Origin: Ignavibacteriales bacterium
GTDB taxonomy: Bacteria > Bacteroidota > Ignavibacteria > Ignavibacteriales > Melioribacteraceae
Assembly: GCA_026390795.1 (NCBI GenBank)
Contig: JAPLFG010000003.1
Location: 2,294,001-2,358,000, forward strand
Reading direction: 5' to 3'
DNA: 64,000 bases
The translations under genes and the position numbers were made by a program. This document shows, one piece after another, positions 25,150 through 53,826 of the stretch. A model generated the notes under the pieces. It worked only from the letters and a program-made list of their open reading frames with translations, had not been told where the DNA came from and searched no databases. The first letter of the stretch is position 1; each line of letters begins with the position of its first letter.

Positions 25150-25755
25150 TTATCTTTTTGATTTTCCTGTTCTCATGAATCCTTTCTCTTTTGCATAATC
25201 GAATAACTGTACGTAAAGCATTTTTCTCGCTCGGTGCAATCTTGATCTTACAGTACCGACGGGAATATCAACAAAATCGGCAATCTCTTCGTAAGTAAAT
25301 CCTTCAATATCATTAAGAATTATTACCGTTCTAAAATCCTCCGGCAATTTTTCAATTGCTTTAGAAACATCATCGTCTAAAAGATCGCTGAAGGCATCCA
25401 ACTCATAGTGCTTGGATTCAACTTCATCGGATTTAATATTCTCATAAAAGTTCTGTACATCATCATAATCAACTTTGTTCGGCTCTTTTGTGTGCTTTCT
25501 GTAATCGTTAATAAACGAGTTCTTCATTATTCTGAATAACCACGCTTTACAATTTGTTCCTTTTTCAAATTTGTCAAAAAAACGGAATGCTTTCATAAAT
25601 GTTTCTTGAACGAGGTCGTCGGCATCGTCTTCGTCGCCAGTCATTCTAAGCGCATAGTTATAGATCGAGTCCATATGCGGAATGGCTTCCTTTTCGAATT
25701 CGACGTAACGTTTTTGTAGCTCTTTGTCGTTCAATGTATTTGTAATTGCTCGCAT
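25150..25755 (-). CDS. ECF-type RNA polymerase sigma factor
   Basis: This is a 201-residue sigma factor with region 2 at about 25-95 (IYNYALRMTGDEDDADDLVQ, WLFRIMKNSFINDYRK) and region 4 at about 130-185 (IEKLPEDFRTVIILNDIEGF and the helix-turn-helix YEEIADFVDIPVGTVRSRLH). Region 3 is absent, as expected for ECF factors. No zinc-finger anti-sigma gene adjoins it. The M14 peptidase gene ends 39 bases upstream on the same strand, and the usp gene follows, so a stress or envelope function is possible but not shown. Confidence 0.9.
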   Translation of the reverse strand: MRAITNTLNDKELQKRYVEFEKEAIPHMDSIYNYALRMTGDEDDADDLVQETFMKAFRFFDKFEKGTNCKAWLFRIMKNSFINDYRKHTKEPNKVDYDDVQNFYENIKSDEVESKHYELDAFSDLLDDDVSKAIEKLPEDFRTVIILNDIEGFTYEEIADFVDIPVGTVRSRLHRARKMLYVQLFDYAKEKGFMRTGKSKR

Positions 25756-53737: not shown

Positions 53738-53765
53738 TTGGACAGGGAACCGGGCTGAAAGTTGC
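53738..53765 (-). promoter_or_regulatory. ECF-type promoter for the DUF6249/S41 operon
   Basis: On the minus strand, GCAACTT (53765-53759), a 16-base spacer and TCCAA (53742-53738) match the RpoE-like layout GGAACTT-N16-TCAAA. It lies 34 bases before the ATG of the DUF6249-like gene. The -35 box and the spacing are identical to those of the divergent promoter at 53799-53826. Confidence 0.65.
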
Positions 53766-53798
53766 GGATAAATAAAAGATATTTTTGTTAAGCAGGAT

Positions 53799-53826
53799 GC
53801 AACTTTGCAAAGCTCTTTCAGTCAAA
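53799..53826 (+). promoter_or_regulatory. ECF-type promoter for the sigma/anti-sigma operon
   Basis: GCAACTT (53799-53805), a 16-base spacer and TCAAA (53822-53826) fit an RpoE-like ECF promoter, with one change in the -35 box from GGAACTT. It lies 24 bases before the sigma factor ATG at 53851, implying autoregulation. Confidence 0.7.

Follow-up and report, generated by a model that had tools for sequence, protein, structure and literature searches.

Paired candidate promoters, probable targets of the neighbouring ECF sigma factor, precede a sigma/anti-sigma operon and a DUF6249-like/S41 protease operon in Ignavibacteriales

ECF sigma factors are a main means of envelope sensing in Bacteroidota and, to our knowledge, most of them have no known target promoter. 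Among the listed hallmarks of ECF factors are a −35 element containing AAC, a sigma factor with regions 2 and 4 only, an anti-sigma gene directly downstream, and a site upstream of the sigma gene (PMC8103513). All of these are common to the E. coli RpoE/B. subtilis SigW class and the locus described here. Autoregulated ECF promoters and base–residue specificity codes are likewise already known (PMC8103513). In the crystal structure of SigW, residue T171 contacts base −34 (PMC6713349).

The locus lies in a 64,000-nucleotide stretch of an Ignavibacteriales genome (the window, meaning that whole stretch) and consists of two divergent operons, each preceded by a putative promoter (Table 1). As in other ECF (group IV) sigma factors, the sigma protein has regions 2 and 4 only, with both Pfam scores over the cut-off, and a predicted AAC-type −35 site stands upstream of its own operon, with counterparts in orthologous loci. 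Its nearest solved structure is SigW (5wuq, E 2.7e-22), and it scores below the NCBIfam equivalog cut-offs for both SigW (118.3 vs. 209) and RpoE (90.5 vs. 236). The anti-sigma gene begins 7 bp after the sigma gene. Its product has weak profile scores, below cut-offs (zf-HC2, 13 bits; RsrA, 16.6 bits), and residues H6, H30, C34, and C37 are invariant in four homologues. The zinc motif, the sigma-adjacent gene, and the membrane segments point to a zinc-binding anti-sigma factor (ZAS, class I).

On the opposite strand, the 160-residue membrane protein is called DUF6249-like because it falls below the Pfam gathering threshold, whereas homologues in three loci (L038, L079, and L050) pass it, with a score of 34.4 for the direct homologue in L038. 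Its structure model is all-helical and of fair confidence (pLDDT 81, pTM 0.54). A comparison of this model with the PDB gave no match below E 2.5, so we draw no function from the fold. The protease gene lies 25 bp downstream, and its product clears the gathering threshold of Peptidase_S41, placing it in that family.

Table 1. Genes and putative promoters of the locus, with positions in the window.
Feature	Position	Strand	Description
S41-family protease, 447 aa	51853..53196	-	Signal peptide-like N-terminus; Peptidase_S41 87.5 bits (gathering threshold 24); Peptidase_S41_N 45.2
DUF6249-like membrane protein, 160 aa	53222..53704	-	PF19762 24.9 bits, under gathering threshold 33
Putative promoter, DUF6249-like/S41 operon	53738..53765	-	−35 GCAACTT 53765-53759; −10 GTCCAA 53743-53738; N17 spacing as in the other site
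Putative promoter, sigma/anti-sigma operon	53799..53826	+	−35 GCAACTT 53799-53805, T at 53798; −10 GTCAAA 53821-53826; AAC-N17-GTC
ECF sigma factor, 190 aa	53851..54423	+	Regions 2 and 4 only; Sigma70_r2 (PF04542) 44.6 bits, r4_2 (PF08281) 52 bits
Predicted membrane anti-sigma factor, 146 aa	54431..54871	+	HX3CX2C zinc motif (H30, C34, C37), then hydrophobic segments; directly after sigma

A first-pass annotation of this DNA had proposed back-to-back ECF promoters with equal −35 boxes and spacing between the two operons, and both sites are present. The minus strand carries GCAACTTTCAGCCCGGTTCCCTGTCCAA at 53765-53738, and the plus strand carries GCAACTTTGCAAAGCTCTTTCAGTCAAA at 53799-53826. The positions it gave stand, and only its boxes were slightly short, since the −10 element begins with G (GTCMAA). 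The sites share GCAACTTT, followed by GTCCAA on the minus strand or GTCAAA on the plus strand, and AAC is separated from GTC by exactly 17 bases. Because GCAACTTT and the initial G of the −10 box are common to both, the shared core is GCAAC-N17-GTC. The end of the −10 box lies 24 bp upstream of the start codon of the sigma gene and 33 bp upstream of that of the DUF6249-like gene. Neither sigma-70-type promoters nor terminators occur in the region more often than in shuffled sequence.

One alternative is a chance likeness within one AT-rich intergenic region. The pattern GCAACTT-N16-TCMAA occurs twice in the window, although only 0.03 occurrences would be expected, and two matches never arose in 100 window shuffles, which bears out the earlier judgement that two equally spaced matches are unlikely to be accidental. 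The genome-wide scan proposed together with that judgement (4.08 Mb) returned seven matches vs. three for the reversed-pattern control; the G of GTC is confined to the window pair, and all five remaining matches fall within ORFs. Under a third-order Markov model, 0.44 strict sites are expected per genome, and the probability that a given strict site has a back-to-back partner at most 60 bp away is ~3e-6. When two mismatches are allowed, the window count is at chance level (25 vs. 21.4), as a fortuitous likeness would have it, so that the case depends on the exact pair and its conservation. The paired sites are kept both in orthologs and across the phylum, as described below, and this conservation refutes an accidental origin, which we regard as scarcely conceivable.

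No sigma ortholog above 37% identity was found in the same genus. Orthologs occur in a genome of the same family (G129, locus L038; 43% identity) and in a Bacteroidetes genome assembled from a metagenome (L063; 51%). The three closest systems, those of the window, L063, and L038, have in common the sigma, anti-sigma, DUF6249-like, and S41 genes, as well as TGCAAC-N17-GTC sites, and the S41 proteins are 60% (L038) and 41% (L063) identical to that of the window. L063 has the same four-gene divergent layout, with TGCAAC-N17-GTCTAA on each side. The gene order in L038 differs: the DUF6249 gene stands behind the anti-sigma gene, S41 alone is divergent, and three TGCAAC-N17-GTC sites are found, one upstream of each of sigma, S41, and DUF6249. 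In both loci the TGCAAC and GTC boxes and the N17 spacing are kept, while the spacers and flanks have diverged. Conservation in orthologous divergent loci had been named beforehand as one point on which the proposal could fail, and the sites are there in L063 and L038. Two other loci, L075 and L076, carry DUF6249 downstream and on the same strand, under a TGCAAC-N17-GTC of its own. A matching site thus stands upstream of the DUF6249-like gene, the S41 gene, or both in these four loci, and the putative promoters follow the genes when the gene order changes (L038, L075, and L076).

The anti-sigma homologue of L063 (5558-5875) is only 105 residues long and lacks the N-terminal HX3CX2C part, with both promoters and the gene order kept. 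A blind DNA search of 390 Bacteroidota genomes for TGCAAC sites set back to back, one with N17 and the other with N17-18, found a single locus, the G129 ortholog, and no control matches. The slightly different pair of the window was not matched by this pattern because it demands TGCAAC at both sites and GTCT at one of them.

The wider survey used the DUF6249 profile alone, which was searched in 296 and 164 genomes, and the neighbourhoods of the best-scoring loci were read. An ECF sigma gene adjoins DUF6249 at 57 of the 58 best-scoring loci, which were chosen regardless of sigma factors, and the sole locus lacking one is truncated by the end of its contig. Fifty-one of the 57 are divergent, and ten more loci, one of them the window, bring the set to 61. 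Each strand was scored by itself for its best site, with a cut-off of at least 15.5. Sites are present on both strands in all 61 loci and in none of 1,220 dinucleotide shuffles (single-strand matches occur in 3.2% of shuffles); the site-scoring weights behind these counts were set after examples had been seen, so the model is not an independently trained one, and the shuffles were scored with the same weights. Six divergent loci that failed a first strict scan carry matched variants on both sides. Among one-directional DUF6249-sigma operons, five of six have one such site upstream of DUF6249.

These arrangements bear on a second alternative, in which the inverted GTTGC..GCAAC would be the palindromic operator of a dimeric DNA-binding regulator rather than two promoters. 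The half-sites do make an inverted repeat in the window. However, the −35 boxes are 33, 32, and 42 bp apart among the three closest systems and up to hundreds of base pairs apart elsewhere (for example in L123 and L129), single sites occur upstream of DUF6249 in the one-directional operons, and neither a conserved GTC at fixed spacing nor a match to a sigma residue would be expected of an operator. Given the variable distance and the single sites, we rejected this reading as very improbable.

The two sites of a locus also change together. In 60 of the 61 loci both sites have the same −34 base (third of TGXAAC), compared with a mean of 32.9 and a maximum of 45 in 10,000 permutations. Spacer length is equal in 53 of 61, a value reached in none of 10,000 permutations, and the −10 triplet in all 61, including four loci with triplets other than GTC (ATC/ATC twice, GAC/GAC, and TTC/TTC). 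In the sigma alignment, the column most informative for the −34 base is the equivalent of SigW T171. Val at this position (with one Ile and one Thr) accompanies T, Ser or Asn (once Ala) accompanies C, and mostly Thr or Ala, also Asn, accompanies A. By recognition-helix alignment the window sigma factor has Ser here, and it belongs to a well supported clade of eight rows characterised by C at −34. Inside the C clade, L081 has Val171 together with T on both sides. Ala171 is found with both A and C, and the single discordant locus (L089), with A on one side and C on the other, has Ala. On the tree of the 61 loci, as few as five changes at −34 suffice; since the loci are also related, the effective sample is far below 61 and the permutation values overstate the independent evidence. 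Stronger evidence comes from the match between the two separate sites inside each locus.

The paired sites, their agreement at −34, and the tracking of residue 171 make it very probable that the adjacent sigma factor reads the paired promoters. The recognition sequence that the first-pass annotation had predicted for it gains support from the orthologous sites and from their co-variation with a −35-contacting residue. The promoters could instead be real but chiefly read by another ECF sigma factor of the genome. The genome has about 19 further ECF-like matches, which might cross-recognise the sites, and the AAC-N17-GTC frame is common to other ECF promoters of the order. Such cross-regulation is nevertheless unlikely, because the −34 base follows residue 171 of the adjacent sigma factor across loci, because the other DUF6249 module of this genome has a different variant, and because strict GCAACTT with the full GTCMAA box occurs nowhere else in the genome. 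That other ECF/DUF6249 module (L050; contig C3, ~2388181-2389300, outside the window) has putative back-to-back TGTAACCT promoters with N18 spacing and Val at the residue-171 position.

A further ECF-type sigma gene lies in the window (25150-25755, minus strand; 201 aa), with no DUF6249 match nearby in the own-genome results. Several ECF sigma genes of the order and this genome (L009, L017, L020, L025, L028, L030, L036, and L044) have directly upstream a CAACCTTT-type −35 with GTCTAA in the same AAC-N17-GTC frame; these are likely autoregulated promoters of different specificity. At L128 (1474-3299) and L137 (1471-3315), one strand carries in succession DUF6249, an uncharacterised gene of secreted or lipoprotein-like type, and the ECF sigma gene, with one TGCAACCT site upstream of DUF6249.

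With regard to the extent of the regulon, the first-pass annotation counted four genes. Four genes do lie under matching sites, but the number is to be read as a minimum: the relaxed pattern GCAAC-N17-GTCNNA gives 17 sites in the genome vs. 16 for the control, so a wider regulon is not claimed. Besides the pair, relaxed sites lie shortly upstream of a gene only at L108, L113, and L103, and the latter two are also inside another ORF. The L108 site (C3:515207-515234; GCAACCTTT..GTCTTA) lies 4 bp upstream of the first start codon of a gene whose 171-residue product combines a hydrophobic segment with a HEAT-like repeat. It may be the target of another sigma factor; alternatively, translation may begin at a later ATG.

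Our preferred reading, which we hold with high confidence, is that the two sites are paired promoters through which the adjacent ECF sigma factor would drive both its own operon and the DUF6249-like/S41 operon. By analogy with the family, the anti-sigma factor would keep the sigma factor at the membrane and let go of it in response to an envelope signal. RNA polymerase carrying the sigma factor would then start at 53799-53826 to yield more sigma and anti-sigma (autoregulation), and at 53765-53738 to yield the DUF6249-like membrane protein and the S41 protease; we infer transcription from both sites. DUF6249 itself may be more than a target and act as a third functional part of the signalling unit. 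A fuller and more tentative proposal is that DUF6249 is an obligate third component of phylum-wide Bacteroidota ECF modules, its gene placed under a copy of the partner sigma's promoter, and that it senses or tunes sigma release, with the S41 protease of the window branch perhaps acting on envelope targets or on the anti-sigma factor. In other loci of the C type, the gene after DUF6249 encodes a different exported protein (DUF4932 in L079, 1-1027, minus strand), and the S41 protease may therefore be one of several exchangeable cargo genes.

This analysis places DUF6249, a widespread family of unknown function, in a first functional setting as a partner of ECF systems. Because paired promoters are two independent readings of each sigma factor's recognition sequence, specificity becomes readable from genomes alone, and the correspondence between residue 171 and base −34 is directly testable.

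A full-text literature search for DUF6249 matched only an unrelated plant kinase paper, and neither the constant DUF6249 pairing nor the doubled promoter was found in the literature searched, although both may already be catalogued among ECF groups. The locus-tag names of the NCBIfam GFO_1088-family ECF sigma factor (NF058625) and GFO_1087-family S41 peptidase (NF058627) suggest neighbouring genes; the window proteins score below the cut-offs of both families (83.4 vs. 130 and 21.6 vs. 455). The Pfam DUF6249 family (PF19762) matches the same region of the window protein, which has an extra N-terminal hydrophobic segment. From the RpoE/SigW class the locus differs in its second matching promoter on the opposite strand, serving the DUF6249-like/S41 operon, in C at −34, and in its −10 element, GTCMAA. 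Compared with SigW sigma-4 on the −35 element (PMC6713349), the recognition helix is homologous and −34 would be contacted by the T171 equivalent, but the window sigma factor has Ser at 171 and His for R172, and −34 is C, not A. In the ECF sigma–promoter specificity code, as described in PMC8103513 (its ref. 50), bases of autoregulated promoters correspond to DNA-contact residues of the sigma factor. The same appears to hold here, with the difference that the promoter pair offers two readings of one code, that between the −34 base and residue 171.
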